Source of the DNA: Clostridiales bacterium
GTDB taxonomy: Bacteria; Bacillota; Clostridia; Saccharofermentanales; Saccharofermentanaceae
DNA length: 42,857 nt
NCBI GenBank assembly: GCA_024691135.1
Contig: JAILNZ010000174.1
Location: 1-42,857 of the forward strand
Direction of reading: 5' to 3'
The position numbers and the translations under genes were made by a program. Under the pieces are notes generated by a model. It saw only the letters and a list, made by a program, of their open reading frames with translations, searched no databases and was not told where the DNA came from. Shown here in pieces: positions 15,001 to 31,730 of the stretch (within the stretch, counting starts at the first letter, position 1; each line of letters begins with the position of its first letter).

Positions 15001-16107
15001 ATGAGAATCAGGAAAGGTCCCTATGGCAGTTTTGCAACATGCGAGATCAAGAATACGCAACAGATTTACAATTATGCCATGGATATCTTAAAAACAGGTG
15101 CGATCGATGGTCTTTTGACCGTTTATGATGATGAAGGAGCCAAAGGTCTTAATCTCTCTTATGAGTTCTCGGGACTTATGAGCATCAATGACAAAGAAGC
15201 GATAAACACAGATATTGACAAAAGGCGTATGGCCATAGGGAATCTTTTCCGTCTCATACTTAAGATGCAGGATATTCTTCTCCCTTCCGATAATATTGTA
15301 ATAGAACCTGACTATATCTATTTTGACAGCGGGAATAATACGATAAATCTCTGCTATATCCCGGTTAGGACAGATTCTCTTTCAGGATTGTCATCTATCG
15401 ATCCCGAGGGATTTGAAAACCTTCTTAATTGTCGGTTTTTCAGAGAAGCATTATCCGATGACGAGAGATCCGCCATCATCTATTCGATCAAGACTGATGA
15501 CGAGAATATGTTTGAGGAAGTGATAGGATCCGTTACAAAAGCTCATGACAAAACCGTCAGGGAATTTGATAAAGAAAGGCTCAGTTTTTTCCTCCTCACT
15601 TGCTTTTCGTTTCTGGCACTGATCTTTTCGGCGTTCTTTCTTGAGCAGTTCTGTACCGTCATATTGGGGATCATATTCGCAGGTCTTCTCATAAAGACCT
15701 ACTATGACTATAAGACGGCAAAAAAGGAAGAAACCGGGAATGATCTTATCAATGACAGGACCACGATCCTTTTCGGAGAAGATCCTGATCTTATCGGTGA
15801 TGACAATCTCTTTTCTTTTGCTTCATTAAGTTCGACAGAAGACAAAAAGGCTTATGGTCTTTATGCTCATGAGACCAAGATAGGATCCGACAGATTCTTA
15901 TCCGACATCCATATTGATGATAATAAGCTTTCGGCGATCCAGGCAAAGATAATAAGAGAAGACAACTGCTTTTATATAATCGACTGTTCGGAAAGAAATA
16001 ATACTTTTCTTGAAAACCGTTCTCTCGAAAAGGAAAAGAGATACGAGATCAAGAATGGACAGAAGATCAGTTTCGGAGATAAGGAATTCGAATTTTCAGT
16101 TAATTAG
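15001..16107 (+). CDS. FHA-domain membrane protein (DUF6382-like N-terminus) of the Tad locus
   Basis: N-terminal cytoplasmic domain, two hydrophobic segments near the middle, C-terminal FHA-like KIGSDRFLSDIHIDDNKLSAIQAKI...NNTFLEN. Confidence 0.75.
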   Translation: MRIRKGPYGSFATCEIKNTQQIYNYAMDILKTGAIDGLLTVYDDEGAKGLNLSYEFSGLMSINDKEAINTDIDKRRMAIGNLFRLILKMQDILLPSDNIVIEPDYIYFDSGNNTINLCYIPVRTDSLSGLSSIDPEGFENLLNCRFFREALSDDERSAIIYSIKTDDENMFEEVIGSVTKAHDKTVREFDKERLSFFLLTCFSFLALIFSAFFLEQFCTVILGIIFAGLLIKTYYDYKTAKKEETGNDLINDRTTILFGEDPDLIGDDNLFSFASLSSTEDKKAYGLYAHETKIGSDRFLSDIHIDDNKLSAIQAKIIREDNCFYIIDCSERNNTFLENRSLEKEKRYEIKNGQKISFGDKEFEFSVN

Positions 16108-16576
16108 CCGTATCGTTCCTTAATGATTCCAGTAAAGCTTTCTGCTGTTCGTTTCCGTAAAGCTCGATAAGATGAAGTCTGGCATTAGCCCTGTTGAGCT
16201 TTTCCTTTATATTACCGACCTTGATAAGTTCCTTGGGATCTGTCTGCTTTAAAAGATCCTCATTGGCTTTATAAGATATGTAAGCCCTGCGGATATCGAT
16301 ATCTTCAGGCCATTCGGCTGAATTCGATACTATGAGGACCATATGTTGACCGATCTCGGCATATCCTTCGGTAATGACACAGTATTTTGTCTCATCTCCG
16401 ATCCTTATGCTGCAGATACCGGGAAAAAGAGCAATGACAAGAGGCATATGACCTGCCATTATACCTACGGAACCGTCCTGAGAAGGCAAGGTTACACTGT
16501 CAGCTTTTGATTCAAAAAAGTTGGTATAAGGCGTAACTATCGTAACTCTTGTCTGATGTCTTTTCTCTTCTGCCAT
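16100..16576 (-). CDS. atpC: ATP synthase subunit epsilon
   Basis: VTIVTPYTNFFESKADSVTLPSQDGSVGIMAGHMPLV; last gene of the atp operon. Confidence 0.93.
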   Translation of the reverse strand: MAEEKRHQTRVTIVTPYTNFFESKADSVTLPSQDGSVGIMAGHMPLVIALFPGICSIRIGDETKYCVITEGYAEIGQHMVLIVSNSAEWPEDIDIRRAYISYKANEDLLKQTDPKELIKVGNIKEKLNRANARLHLIELYGNEQQKALLESLRNDTAN

Positions 16577-16578
16577 TA

Positions 16579-17973
<1,395 letters not shown>

Positions 17974-17983
17974 TCACCTCTCG

Positions 17984-18919
17984 TCAAATATTGTTTGCCT
18001 GCTCGGCACCGTTGATGATCTCCGTAAGTTCGTTCGTGATCTTAGATTGTCTTGCCCTGTTGCTCATAAGCTCGAGCTTTTTGATCATCTCATCCGCGTT
18101 CTTGGAAGCATTGTCCATGGCGGTCATCCTTGCCGTCTGTTCGCTTGAATATGCCTCCACCATCGCGCCGTAGACCATCGCGTTAAGATATGTATCGATA
18201 AGAAAGTTAAAGACTGTTGATGCATCGGGACTATATTCCATCTCAGAACCCTGTTCGAGAGCGACACCCGGATCTCCGATGTTTTCCGGCAGGACTGCCA
18301 TGATGGATTTCTTGTTGATCGGAACGAGCCTTATTATGATCGGCTTCATATTGATCGCCGATTTCATCTTGGTATAGATCAGGTATACGAGGTCATAGTG
18401 ATTGATAAGGAACTTTTCCTTAATGATCGATGACACTTCACTTGCCTGGAAGAATGTCGGTTCGGAGATCAGATATGAGAACTCGGGATCGACGTTATAT
18501 CCGTCCTTTTTGAGCTTCTCCCTTGCTATGTTTCCGAAAACATAAAGCGTATAGTCAGTAGATAATCCCTTGCCGGTATTATCAAGGATCTTGCTTCTTA
18601 TATGATCTTCGGTACTCTTTACGACCTCGTTATTATATACACCCGCAAGTCCCTGCTCACCGCTTAGTACAAAGTAAGCGATCTTCCATGTGCCTTCTTT
18701 TTTCTGTACGAGATTACAGTAGGGATTATCGATCGTGTAGTCACCATGAAGGATCTCGAGCATACTCTCCGCACAAAGAGAAAAGAAAGGATATACGGTG
18801 TCATGAAGAGCTCTTGATCTCCTCATCTTTGAGGCGCTTACAAGCTGCATCGCACGCGTCATCTGTCCGATGTCATCTACACTCTTTATCCTCTTTTTTA
18901 TCTCGTTGGGATTCTGCAT
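17984..18919 (-). CDS. atpG: ATP synthase subunit gamma
   Basis: N-terminal IKKRIKSVDDIGQMTRAMQLVSASKMRRS; C-terminal ARMTAMDNASKNADEMIKKLELMSNRARQSKITNELTEIINGA. Confidence 0.96.
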   Translation of the reverse strand: MQNPNEIKKRIKSVDDIGQMTRAMQLVSASKMRRSRALHDTVYPFFSLCAESMLEILHGDYTIDNPYCNLVQKKEGTWKIAYFVLSGEQGLAGVYNNEVVKSTEDHIRSKILDNTGKGLSTDYTLYVFGNIAREKLKKDGYNVDPEFSYLISEPTFFQASEVSSIIKEKFLINHYDLVYLIYTKMKSAINMKPIIIRLVPINKKSIMAVLPENIGDPGVALEQGSEMEYSPDASTVFNFLIDTYLNAMVYGAMVEAYSSEQTARMTAMDNASKNADEMIKKLELMSNRARQSKITNELTEIINGAEQANNI

Positions 18920-18931
18920 ATCGTCCCTTCT

Positions 18932-20869
18932 TTATTCTTTTTCCCTGTATTCTGTATGTTCCGTAATATACTTGAGCTTAAATTCTTCGTATATGTCGTC
19001 GACTTTTTTCTCGGTCTCGGGAGTAAACTCGCCTGAACTTCTTATAGTCCTTAAGACACTGTTATAAAGAACGTGCATATAATCAAGGAACTCGTCAACA
19101 AAGTCGCTGATGTCCTCCCTGGCCAGGAAGTTAAGCCTGTCAGTCGTCGCGACATGAAGCATTACGACCTGCTCTGCCATGGTAAGAGGAGAAAATTGTG
19201 CCTGCTTCATTATCGTATTAAGAACGACTCCTCGCCTTAACTGAAGCTGGGTATTTTCGTCAAGATCAGAACCGAATCTCGCGAAAGCAGCCATCTCACG
19301 TGCCTGGGCAAGAGAGATACGGAGCGGTCCTCCGACCTTCTTTATCGCCTTTGTTTGGGCTGCACCGCCTACACGGGATACGGAAAGACCGACGTTGATG
19401 GCAGGTCTTTGGCCCGAGAAGAACAGTTCTGATTCAAGATATATCTGACCGTCGGTTATGGAGATAACGTTGGTCGGGATATATGCGGAGATATCACCGC
19501 CCTGTGTCTCGATGATCGGAAGTGCCGTAATGGAAGCACCGCCGAGTTCGGAAGACAATTTGGCGGAACGCTCGAGAAGCCTTGAGTGGAGATAGAATAC
19601 GTCACCAGGATAAGCTTCACGTCCCGGAGGTCTTCTCAAAAGGAGTGATATTGCCCTGTATGCCTGAGCATGCTTACTTAAGTCATCGTAGACGATGAGA
19701 ACATCCTTCTTCTGCTTATACATGAATTCTTCCGCAATGGCACATCCTGCATAAGGAGCAATGTACTGAAGCGAAGCCGAATCGGATGAACTCGCGGCTA
19801 CAACAACTGTATAGGAAAGTGCGTCATGCTTTTCGAGAAGGTTTACGGTAGAAACGATCGTGCTCATCTTCTGACCGATGGCTACGTAAACGCAGATGAC
19901 ATTCTGGTGTTTCTGGTTGATTATCGTGTCGATCGCGATGGCTGTCTTTCCGGTCTGCCTGTCGCCGATTATGAGTTCACGCTGTCCCCTTCCTATCGGA
20001 GTAAGAGCATCGATAGCCGTAATACCTGTCTGCAGAGGCTTATTTACGGGAGATCTCTCAACAATGGAAGGAGCTTTTGATTCGATAGGCCTCTTATCCG
20101 TATAACGGATGATTCCTTTACCGTCGATCGGGTTTCCGAGAGGATTTATGACACGGCCCAAAAGGCCTCTTCCGACAGGAACGGATACGGTCTCGCCCGT
20201 TCTCTTACAGATCATGCCTTCAGTAACCGTCTCGGGTTTTGTAAGAAGTACTACGCCTACTTTGTCCATCTCGAGGTTCATGGCGATACCCGTGGCACCG
20301 CTCGAAAAGCTTATGAGCTCGGTTGATTTACATTTATTGATACCTTCAACGACTGCAACACCGTCGCTTACGCTCAAAACGGTGCCGACCTCGTCAATGG
20401 TCGTAACTTTAAGGAATGTATCCCTGATCTTACTCGTTACGCCGGTCCATGTAATGCTGTCATCCGCTTCGATCTCTTCATCGGTTGCCCAGAGATTCTG
20501 ATCATAAACGGCAGTTGTCGGAGCTTCGTTATACATCGCGAGAGCTTCTTTGATACTCTCCTTGATCTCCTGACCCGTAAAGTTCGAGATATCATTCTCT
20601 TTTATCTCCGATTCGTCAACGACCTTACGGTTACGCTTGATGAATTCGCTGATACGCTGGAGCTGACCCTTGACGCTGTAGTCATATAAGTGACCGAGAG
20701 CATAAATGGCAAATCCGCTGACAAGCGATTCATCGCGTTTTGCTTCATACTCATAATGCGAGATGTTATTGATCTCGGCAAAACGCTTAACGATGAGAGA
20801 GATCTTCTCATCGCTGAAATCGTCCGCGTAGACAAACTTGATTAAGATCGTCTTATCACTGTTCTGCAT
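18932..20869 (-). CDS. atpA: ATP synthase subunit alpha with an N-terminal delta(OSCP)-C-terminal-domain-like extension
   Basis: Alpha core: [61 protein letters not shown]. 645 aa with ~130 extra N-terminal residues including [29 protein letters not shown]. Confidence 0.96.
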
Positions 20870-21437
20870 TGATCTTGTTCACCTCTGCATCGAGCGTCTG
20901 ATTAGCATGTTTCAGACAGAGTTCCTCGAGTGTTTCCTTGGAAACGATCTCGCCTATGACCTTCTGGGAAACTTCAACGGCAAGATCCGTAACCTCGTCT
21001 TTTACCTCTTCAAGAGCAGATCTCTTGATCTTCTTGACCTCATCATCAGCTTTGATAAGCGTCTGCTGGGCATCTTCGTTAGCTCTGGATATAATGATAT
21101 TTGCCTGACTCTCGGCATTTTCCTTAGCTTCATTTACGATACGGGCTGCTTCGTTCCTCGCATCATCAATGATCTGCTTACTCTCCTCGATCCTGGCCTG
21201 AGCTTCCTGCTCTTTTTTCTCGGCTCCCTCGACATTGTCTTTTATGAGCTTCTGCCTGTCATTAAGAAGTTTGATCATCGGCTTAAAGATGAGAAACTTG
21301 ATGATGAGGAAAGAGATCAGGACAGTGATAACAGCTATAACTGCGGTTGAAAGATAACCGCCGAGCTGCTCGGGCGAGAAAAGTCCGCCTTCTGAACTTT
21401 CTGTTTCCAATAATATGAATTGATAAAGCATATCCAA
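20856..21437 (-). CDS. atpF: ATP synthase subunit b
   Basis: Single N-terminal TM helix, long charged coiled coil, position between c and alpha. Confidence 0.92.
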
Positions 21438-21469: not shown

Positions 21470-21739
21470 TCAGAATGTAAAGATCAACAGCAACGCAGTA
21501 ACGAGAGCGTAGATCGCAACTGACTCGATAAATACGATAGCCGTAAGAAGGAGTGTCTGGATCTTACTGAAGATCTCAGGCTGCCTTGCACCCGCTTCAA
21601 CTGCTTTTCCTGCAGCGATACCCATACCGATACCTGCACCCAGAGCACCGAGTCCGATAGCTATACCTGCTCCGAGTCCCGCAAATCCCTTCGGATCCAT
21701 AGCAAGCATGACCGGCATAAGATTAAATAACATGTTCAT
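21470..21739 (-). CDS. atpE: ATP synthase subunit c
   Basis: GLGALGAGIGMGIAAGKAVEAGARQPE and LLTAIVFIESVAIYALVTALLLIF hairpin. Confidence 0.96.
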   Translation of the reverse strand: MNMLFNLMPVMLAMDPKGFAGLGAGIAIGLGALGAGIGMGIAAGKAVEAGARQPEIFSKIQTLLLTAIVFIESVAIYALVTALLLIFTF

Positions 21740-21768: not shown

Positions 21769-22656
21769 TCAGTTATTGGTGGCCGCAGCCATTTCTTTTT
21801 CTTTCTTCAACTGCTCTTTTTGAGCTTTCTTCAGAGCTTTCTTTTCTTTTTTCTCTTTGGCTATGATCTCTGCTTCGTGAGCACCCTCGACCACTTCCCC
21901 GATATAGGACATCAGAAGATATGAGAATACGACAGCCTGAAGTATACCGTCGATCAGGTCAAACCACAGTCCGAATACGGCAGGAAACAGTATCGGCGTT
22001 ACGATAGACAGAAATTCCATGAAAACAAATGCGCCGAATACGTTACCGAAGAGACGGAGTGATAATGATATCGGCTTGATGATATAGTCCAGTATCTTAA
22101 ACGGGATCATTGCCGCGATCGGCGATTTCAAAGAACCCCAGAATCCCTTTATGCCGACCATTCTTATCGATGTGGCGATGACATAGATGATAGCTACCAG
22201 GGCGAGAGCCACAGGAAATGCAATATTCTTGGCAGGCGGTGATACATGGAACCATGAGATGACGTTACAGGACAGGATTATCATTCCGAATGTTCCGATC
22301 ATCGGAGCGATGCTTTCCGCCTGTTCTTTTGAAAGGCCGAAGCCTTCACCAGAAGAGATTATGAGCTCGATGAGAAATTCGACTATCGTCTGTCCCTTTC
22401 CCGGTATCAGCTGCTTCTTTCTGACAGCGATGAGGAAAAGAACGATGATTATGGTGATCGCGATCCATGAGACTATCGTAGCGTCAGTGATCGCAAATTT
22501 GTGACCTCCGACCGTAAAGTATTCCTTCCACTGAAGGATACCTTCGTTGATCTCTTCGCCGATATTTCCGCCGGGTATTATCTTATCTATAAGGTGGTCT
22601 TTGAAGCTGGTCCAAAACCTGTAGCTCCATGAACCTGTGGATAACACAAGACCCAT
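21769..22656 (-). CDS. atpB: ATP synthase subunit a
   Basis: KPISLSLRLFGNVFGAFVFMEFLS and GILQAVVFSYLLMSYIGEVVE; first gene of the operon. Confidence 0.94.
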   Translation of the reverse strand: MGLVLSTGSWSYRFWTSFKDHLIDKIIPGGNIGEEINEGILQWKEYFTVGGHKFAITDATIVSWIAITIIIVLFLIAVRKKQLIPGKGQTIVEFLIELIISSGEGFGLSKEQAESIAPMIGTFGMIILSCNVISWFHVSPPAKNIAFPVALALVAIIYVIATSIRMVGIKGFWGSLKSPIAAMIPFKILDYIIKPISLSLRLFGNVFGAFVFMEFLSIVTPILFPAVFGLWFDLIDGILQAVVFSYLLMSYIGEVVEGAHEAEIIAKEKKEKKALKKAQKEQLKKEKEMAAATNN

Positions 22657-29180: not shown

Positions 29181-31730
29181 TCAGAGCTGGAATGTATCGT
29201 TCGGTTTGATACCTGCATCAAGGCAGAGCTTCTTAAACTCCTCCGATCCGCAGAATCCGTCAAATACCTGCTCCCTGGTAGAGCCGTTCTTGAGCTGCTT
29301 AACCCAGAATGCTTTACCTTCACTCTCGGAAGCACGGTCAAGGAATATCTTGTAGAGAACTTCTACGTAATCCTCATCAGAGAGTTTCTTGTCAGACAAC
29401 TCAGGACTGAAGATGAATCCCTTGGATACTGTCTTTCCGTCGCTGCCCTTCTTGAGCTCATTAACCCAGAAATCGAATCCGTCCGGATCAGGATCACGGG
29501 ACAGTGAGAGCTGGTAGAGCCTTGTAACGAAGGACTTAACCTTTTCTTCGTTGAATGTAAGAGTATAAGTTGTCGAGCTCGTATACTTGGACTTGGAAAC
29601 CTTGTACTGGTCGCAGAGGGAATTGAACTCCTTGGAATTCAGGAATCCTTCAAGAATGTGAGTTCTTGAGTAGTGTTCATTCTCGATCTGGCCAAGCCAA
29701 TACTTAAGGCCGTCGTCATCGGCTTCACGGCCGAGGCAAACTGTGTAAAGTCTCTTAACGAATTCCTCATCACTGAGCTTTAAGCCTTGGAACTCAGGGC
29801 TGTTATAGAAGGCTTCAGCTACCTGCTGACCGGACTGTGTATTCGTAACAAGGGCATTCATCCAGAATCTCAAACCGTCACGGTCATATTCCCTGCCCAT
29901 AAATCCGGTATAAAGTCTCTCAACGAAAGGCTTAAGAGTATTCATGCTCTTATCGACCTTGTCGGTATCAGTATAGCTTCCGGAGTTGACGCTGTAGAGA
30001 TCGAAGAACTTACGGCACTCCTGGCTTCCGGATACGATCTGATAAGGATAAAGGATACTGTAACCCTTATTCATGAGATCCTTATAATACTTGAGGCCGT
30101 CTTCATCGGCATCTCTTCCGAGAAGGACCTGATACATGATCTTAACCTGATCCTCTACAGAGAGCTTTCTGTTATTAAACTCCTGTGATTCGAAGATAGA
30201 TGCGATGACCTTGGTAGCCTCTTCACCGTTTACAAGTCTTGTTGACATTGAAGTAAGCTCATCAGACTTAGGTGCTCTTCCGAGTGCAAGCTGATAAGAG
30301 CGGTTAATGAGATCATATGCCGCATTTTCCTTGGTAGGAAGAGGACAAGCCTCGGAAGGCATATTCTTATAGACAGGGATGATAAACGTAAGCTCGGAAT
30401 TAACGATCCCTGCCTTATCGTAAGCCGTGAACATTCTCTTGGCTTCGGAAGTAGCAGACTGTGTTGCAGTCATATACTGATGTGAACATAACTTGGTGCC
30501 GGACTTCGGAGATGTATTAAATCTCATATAATAAATGGTGTTCTGACCACGTGAGGTGTAATAATCACTCATCCATTTTGCACCGCCGATAATGGAGTTG
30601 CCCTGGGAATCCCACGGGATAAGATACTTCTGATTGAACTCGGAATTCGCTACACCGTTACCGTACTGGGCAAACTTAAGTCCGACATAAGCTGAATTAG
30701 TAGCATCGGAATAAGCTCCGATGTTATAGAAGTTATAGTAACCGTTAGCACCCTTTGAGGATGTGCTGCCGTTTATGCCGACTTCCTGGATCGACCTTGC
30801 AGCAAGGAAGATAGGATTAATGGAGCTCTCATAACCTGCTATCGCGAACAGCTTGCTGTACTCGATCGAAGACTTGGCATAAGTACCCATCGTATTTGCC
30901 ATAAATGATCCCTGAAGGACCTTTGTGACATACTGATCAGGGTTATTCGGTATGGCTGCCTTGGAATAATCGAGATCCAGGAACTGGAAAACACCGTCAT
31001 CATTCAGGTTGTTACGCGGATCAAGATAATAAGCGATAAGGCCTCTTGAAGCATTTACCCAGTTAGGGGAATCGATTACCTTAAACGTATTGGTTGCCGG
31101 ATCATATACATCGGAAGCCTTGGACTTCCATGCATTATCCACCGTGTTTTCAACAAGTGAGACACCGTTACGGGACTCGAGATTAAGGACTTCATTCCAG
31201 TCGGAGTTACATGTCTGAGCCACAAACTTCCACTTAGGATGCTTCTCGTGAAGATCCCTGAGGGACTTCTTGTAGCTGTCAGGGAAATCCTTGATCTGGT
31301 CTTCAAAATTCTTATCCGCCGAAGGAGTGGACGTCGGCGTAGTCGAAGTCGTTGTAGGTGTCGGAGTTGTCGGAGTGGTCGTAACTGATATCTTTACGTA
31401 GGTCTCTGCGACATAACCCGTGTAATTCTTGTTATTCACGGTTACCGAGATCTTGCACCACTTAGCCGAACCGGATGTATCACCTGATTTGGCATTTACC
31501 GTATCTTCCACCTTGATCTTTGTTCCGTTAGTAAGGGTCGTTACGATATCTGACTTTGTCGTAGGTTCCTTACGAACATTGACCGTCGTAGTTACATTGA
31601 CGATCTCACCGTCTTTTGTATCCGCGCGGAGCATGGAATCAGGCGAGATGAACACAACGGTACAGAGCATCAGGAGCACCATACAAAGGGTCATTGATGC
31701 TTGCTTAAGTACATGAGTTTTTCGTGACAT
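29181..31730 (-). CDS. Secreted SH3b / beta-N-acetylglucosaminidase with C-terminal DUF4214 repeats
   Basis: Signal peptide; SH3b (VTTTVNVRKEPTTKSDIVTTLTNGTKIKV); glucosaminidase region (AARSIQEVGINGSTSSKGANGYYNFYNIGA); TP-rich linker; about six DUF4214-like repeats. Confidence 0.9.
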   Translation of the reverse strand: MSRKTHVLKQASMTLCMVLLMLCTVVFISPDSMLRADTKDGEIVNVTTTVNVRKEPTTKSDIVTTLTNGTKIKVEDTVNAKSGDTSGSAKWCKISVTVNNKNYTGYVAETYVKISVTTTPTTPTPTTTSTTPTSTPSADKNFEDQIKDFPDSYKKSLRDLHEKHPKWKFVAQTCNSDWNEVLNLESRNGVSLVENTVDNAWKSKASDVYDPATNTFKVIDSPNWVNASRGLIAYYLDPRNNLNDDGVFQFLDLDYSKAAIPNNPDQYVTKVLQGSFMANTMGTYAKSSIEYSKLFAIAGYESSINPIFLAARSIQEVGINGSTSSKGANGYYNFYNIGAYSDATNSAYVGLKFAQYGNGVANSEFNQKYLIPWDSQGNSIIGGAKWMSDYYTSRGQNTIYYMRFNTSPKSGTKLCSHQYMTATQSATSEAKRMFTAYDKAGIVNSELTFIIPVYKNMPSEACPLPTKENAAYDLINRSYQLALGRAPKSDELTSMSTRLVNGEEATKVIASIFESQEFNNRKLSVEDQVKIMYQVLLGRDADEDGLKYYKDLMNKGYSILYPYQIVSGSQECRKFFDLYSVNSGSYTDTDKVDKSMNTLKPFVERLYTGFMGREYDRDGLRFWMNALVTNTQSGQQVAEAFYNSPEFQGLKLSDEEFVKRLYTVCLGREADDDGLKYWLGQIENEHYSRTHILEGFLNSKEFNSLCDQYKVSKSKYTSSTTYTLTFNEEKVKSFVTRLYQLSLSRDPDPDGFDFWVNELKKGSDGKTVSKGFIFSPELSDKKLSDEDYVEVLYKIFLDRASESEGKAFWVKQLKNGSTREQVFDGFCGSEEFKKLCLDAGIKPNDTFQL

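Follow-up and report, generated by a model that had tools for sequence, protein, structure and literature searches.

The closest described system to the locus reported here is an engineered PS3 ATP synthase, in which delta residues 2-104 were deleted and the remaining C-terminal domain (CTD) was fused to the alpha subunit (Ueno et al. 2025, PMC12229609; PDB 9JC1). Its complexes have one to three stalks and a corresponding number of a subunits, with an H+/ATP ratio of 5.8 vs 3.0 and an equilibrium proton motive force (pmf) of 68 vs 133 mV (PMC12229609). The same study pointed out natural deltaDeltaN-alpha fusions in Acidaminococcus fermentans and in UniProt entries G4Q3K6 and A0A1I2C5T3, purely on the basis of their sequences, and raised the possibility that the same design is used in nature (PMC12229609). 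In the literature searched it is the one paper that treats a delta-alpha fusion, and none of the papers found describes the clade studied here. An earlier sequence-only reading of the present DNA knew of no described delta-alpha fusion; since both engineered and natural fusions are on record in PMC12229609, that view did not hold, and the locus belongs, as a natural example, to a kind of fusion that had been reported before.

Here we describe this locus in a Clostridiales bacterium (assembly GCA_024691135.1, contig JAILNZ010000174.1). The stretch of DNA analysed, hereafter the window, is 42,857 nucleotides long and encodes a complete F-type ATP synthase, with delta present as a CTD within alpha. 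The genes for a, b, c, alpha, gamma and beta all score over the curated Pfam cut-offs. Elsewhere in the window, at 29181-31730 and 797-2269, lie two large secreted-looking proteins which, by eye, appear to share repeated segments of one domain. The features of the ATP synthase locus are as follows.

21769-22656, minus strand: atpB (subunit a), single copy (PF00119, 110.6 bits)
21470-21739, minus strand: atpE (subunit c), with the GMG/IES helix signature (PF00137, 68.6 bits; alignment)
20856-21437, minus strand: atpF (subunit b), single copy, 193 aa (PF00430, 74 bits)
20879-20886, minus strand: Shine-Dalgarno-like AGAGGTGA, 9 nt before the fusion ATG (read from the sequence)
20856-20869, minus strand: overlap of the b stop and the alpha start, 14 bp (coordinates; overlaps of 8-14 bp are common in relatives)
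18932-20869, minus strand: atpA, the deltaCTD-alpha fusion subunit, 645 aa, ATG start (open reading frame; TIGR00962; Pfam)
20645-20857, minus strand: delta/OSCP C-terminal domain, the b-binding half of delta, alpha residues 5-75 (PF00213, model, Foldseek)
20450-20644, minus strand: linker from the delta CTD to alpha, residues 76-140 (dN/dS; mostly low model confidence)
20534-20575, minus strand: predicted linker helix, residues 99-112 (conserved pattern; both models show a helix there, with modest confidence)
20408-20449, minus strand: residues 141-154, the canonical N-terminal helix of alpha, still present (full-length model; TIGR00962 start)
18965-20419, minus strand: alpha core, comprising the beta-barrel, nucleotide-binding and C-terminal domains (TIGR00962; P-loop and SVSRVGG conserved)
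17984-18919, minus strand: atpG (gamma; PF00231, 251.7 bits)
16579-17967, minus strand: atpD (beta; PF00006, 248.9 bits)
16100-16576, minus strand: atpC (epsilon; assigned by its place in the operon and by conserved homologues that follow beta in relatives)

The gene order on the minus strand is thus a-c-b-[deltaCTD-alpha]-gamma-beta-epsilon, and no open reading frame lies between b and alpha; atpH is missing from the operon, as the sequence-only reading had stated, and the 14-bp overlap that it gave for b and alpha agrees with the coordinates. This overlap probably couples the translation of the two genes. The b subunit is a separate protein without an OSCP match in Pfam, so that the locus does not hold a b-delta fusion of the mycobacterial type.

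The window's alpha carries a genuine delta/OSCP CTD at its N-terminus. With hmmscan, one chain was found to hold PF00213, PF02874, PF00006 and PF00306. Positions 100-170 of the 172-position PF00213 (OSCP) profile match alpha residues 5-75 with 25.3 bits (E=1.9e-5), over the curated Pfam cut-off of 22.3 bits. The extension is a delta CTD without the N-terminal domain (NTD), because the match starts at profile position 100 already at residue 5. TIGR00962 matches residues 151-635 with 729.7 bits, beginning at model position 17 at residue 151. The GDRQTGKT and SVSRVGG regions of alpha are conserved in 37 homologues and beta has GGAGVGKT, so the catalytic and arginine-finger residues are intact.

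The predicted structures agree with this assignment. A model of the isolated extension (26 sequences) reaches a pLDDT of ~80-90 over residues 11-70 and has the fold E-H-E-E-E-H (E8-14, H20-33, E39-45, E53-57, E60-63, H66-80). Its best PDB matches in Foldseek are delta/OSCP proteins of P. aeruginosa, E. coli, PS3 and the chloroplast, with an rmsd of ~2-3 A over ~70 residues; the engineered chains of 9jc1 rank lower among these matches. The full-length model (mean pLDDT 72) places helix 141-154 at the position of the alpha N-helix, and its best PDB match is the engineered deltaDeltaN-alpha chain 9jc1_I (623 columns, E 8.4e-58), which a sequence profile search likewise recovers. Between the two domains, the consensus IKxxLxxALxxFxExP of the linker helix is common to the window's family and to family f3 (alignments A1, A2, A3); as the linker is modelled with low confidence, the helix at 99-112 stays a prediction backed by a conserved pattern. 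The resemblance of alpha residues ~1-80 to a delta CTD, and the lack of any counterpart to the delta NTD, had both been proposed by eye and are borne out by these results.

The same architecture, which the sequence-only reading had suggested looking for in relatives, is widespread. An OSCP match was found in 113 of 148 relatives, and among the matches listed it lies, in at least 88 of the order's genomes, within an open frame no shorter than 560 aa, the length used to count an alpha as fused. The operon and the fusion recur together in three families of the order, with a tight b/alpha junction in the loci read; Saccharofermentans sp., Mageeibacillus sp. and Ruminococcaceae bacterium YAD3003 are among the fused relatives. 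Most of the order's genomes without an OSCP match that were tested also have no strong F-type alpha, with weaker V-type-like matches only. Among those with a strong F-type alpha, the long alphas of two genomes give OSCP matches just above (G090) and just below (G094) the Pfam cut-off, respectively, and no OSCP domain is detectable in the alpha of G118 (616 aa). In family f2, the alpha of L209:3724-5574 (616 aa) has an unexplained N-terminal extension with a repeated PDFVKQE.LRLVREDLL.KREV and no OSCP match. Residues G52, Y62, D63, Y64, S65, G68, Q69, L70 and R72 are invariant in 37 fused homologues. Purifying selection acts on the N-terminal extension: dN/dS is ~0.01-0.17 for the delta part and ~0.03-0.11 for the linker in those close pairs that allow it to be calculated, values to be trusted in direction only because several dS estimates are saturated. 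The fusion is the standard F-ATPase of the window's order, with a conserved predicted linker helix, and this is new here.

Class- and phylum-wide searches recovered further fused alphas of ~590-690 aa in families f6, f9, f16, f26, f46, f105 and f187. In a tree of 77 taxa built from the alpha core and beta, with the extension left out, the fused or unfused state changes 7 times by parsimony, and a topology that unites every fused row in a single clade is rejected (p-AU 2.25e-6), subject to the long branches of this tree. Separately supported fused clades are f26 (98/94), the window's order (100/100) and f105/f187 (98/90), the last a lineage apart from that of the window. The fusion arose several times in Bacillota, although long branches call for caution over precisely how often. 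The earlier proposal that the delta NTD was deleted and the CTD joined to alpha is supported by profile, fold, synteny and phylogeny together.

Several related states of delta were seen in the same searches. CTD-only delta genes of 71-89 aa, with the NTD absent, stand between b and a separate alpha in five loci (L034, L182-L185), four of which show a 4-bp overlap with b. In L033:1533-2315, L186 and L222, delta is 260-290 aa long and combines one NTD with two tandem CTDs. Near-full delta-alpha fusions, in which a delta-like NTD precedes the CTD, were found in L176 (690 aa; OSCP match from profile position 26) and L178 (669 aa); L187, L188 and L189 have shortened deltas (150-153 aa) whose N-terminal domain looks reduced. 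The CTD-only, double-CTD and near-full fused forms may represent steps or alternatives along one route. A double-CTD delta possibly offers two docking sites for b, and stand-alone CTD genes next to b, like the double-CTD delta, would also multiply such sites.

We propose the following mechanism. Delta has lost its six-helix NTD, and its b-binding CTD has become the N-terminus of alpha. Because there are three alphas per F1 head, each head should carry three CTDs, as the sequence-only reading had deduced from the alpha3beta3 stoichiometry, and these would act as three covalent docking sites for b2 stalks in place of one delta. The b2 dimer very probably binds the fused CTD as it does a normal delta, since the delta motif is invariant. 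More than one b2-a unit could attach because the delta NTD, which breaks the threefold symmetry, is gone. Up to three stalks with three a subunits would then raise the H+/ATP ratio as in engineered PS3, and a higher ratio would permit ATP synthesis at low pmf. By analogy with that enzyme, we put the chance that the native one carries more than one stalk at about even. The complete account, from fusion and b docking to as many as three stalks and a raised H+/ATP ratio, seems to us modestly probable. A broader form of it is more tentative, and we would not yet bet on it: that these are order-wide natural multi-stalk ATP synthases, with 2-3 a-b2 units per rotor, which evolved repeatedly in Bacillota as separate lineages each lost the delta NTD, and in which, here, three linker helices and three alpha N-helices form a threefold cap replacing the six-helix delta domain.

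The window's order occurs in rumen, gut and digesters. The window's own genome gives an RnfC-family match and has a membrane pyrophosphatase, which point to, and are consistent with, small gradients and low-energy coupling. A multi-stalk design with a raised H+/ATP ratio would suit fermentative anaerobes with weak pumps, a reading to which we give about even odds.

The strongest alternative is that the fused CTD simply takes over from delta as a covalent anchor. The one b2-a unit would occupy a single CTD of the three, and the other two would stay idle, blocked by the linkers or limited by how much a and b is supplied; an ordinary H+/ATP ratio would result. We regard this as a serious contender that still falls short of an even chance. 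A three-stalk enzyme needs threefold more a and b per F1, and both are single genes in every locus examined; this fits the one-stalk arrangement, although taken alone it argues neither way on stalk number. The long conserved linker could moreover cap F1 and thereby favour one stalk, and an economy of gene loss could account for the repeated fusion. Two further points weigh against the multi-stalk reading: the natural linker exceeds the short engineered one in length, and some congeners also keep a canonical operon. On the other hand, it is hard to see why certain delta proteins would have a tandemly duplicated CTD if one stalk alone could bind, and the engineered fusion took up to three (PMC12229609).

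It is far less likely, and in our view very improbable, that the extension is removed or that alpha is mostly started internally, with delta function supplied in trans by a second, canonical ATPase. This reading draws on some congeners in which a further, canonical operon does encode a complete delta (atpH, ~177 aa; L038, L077-L079, L085, L086, L216). The c-subunit signature of the canonical operon is GEG..AETTGLY vs GMG..IES in the fused operon (alignment), and the two operons may possibly divide the work by coupling ion, Na+ vs H+. Several congeners that are 97-99% complete nevertheless lack another delta: in each of six (G006, G011, G046, G053, G056, G081) the single OSCP match lies inside the fused alpha. 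The window's own assembly (1.97 Mb in 179 contigs, 74.9% complete) has one F-type alpha, the fused one, which also gives the one OSCP match in a six-frame search; since this assembly is incomplete, the absence of a standalone atpH in the species, for which the sequence-only reading had called for a whole-genome search, rests on the near-complete congeners. A delta encoded elsewhere in the genome was rejected on these grounds, the canonical second operon being present in some congeners only. That reading had also taken an atpH elsewhere in the genome as counting against the fusion; as some congeners have the fusion plus a canonical operon, such a gene is not decisive alone. An internal start giving a normal alpha was rejected as well: the fusion start has a good Shine-Dalgarno sequence, the in-frame ATG at residue 112, in the linker, was judged by eye to have no clear one and no other internal start with one was seen in alpha, and the extension is under selection.

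An error of assembly, reading frame or annotation where b meets alpha, for which the fragmentation and incompleteness of the source assembly might speak, is as good as dismissed and was rejected, because dozens of independent assemblies, including Ruminococcaceae bacterium YAD3003 (L164), titled as an organism and not as a MAG, and the single-contig genome G090, agree on the architecture.

On our preferred reading, in which the alpha-borne CTD may let the enzyme hold as many as three stator stalks and run on a weak proton gradient, the number of stalks bears on how low a gradient still makes ATP. For this question many natural enzymes, and likely intermediates in the form of CTD-only, double-CTD and near-full fused proteins, are now available. 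Nature has repeatedly built a kind of polypeptide that was engineered in 2025, and in the window's order it belongs to the standard F-type enzyme.

Compared with known systems, the locus shares the CTD fold and every other subunit with canonical F1Fo (PS3, 6N2Y; E. coli, 6OQR), but lacks the separate full-length delta that is present there once per complex. The mycobacterial b-delta proteins (e.g. PDB 7JG5, 7NJK) are alike in that delta is fused to another stator subunit; there the partner is b, whereas the window's CTD is fused to alpha and so present three times. Acidaminococcus fermentans, G4Q3K6 and A0A1I2C5T3, as described in PMC12229609, are likewise natural fusions without the delta NTD. 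The engineered PS3 deltaDeltaN-alpha shares the CTD at the alpha N-terminus and the lack of the delta NTD, which in the window is missing from both chain and operon; its linker is short, whereas that of the window spans ~65 residues with a conserved predicted helix, and unlike the engineered construct the natural fusion has its own b, a and c partners.
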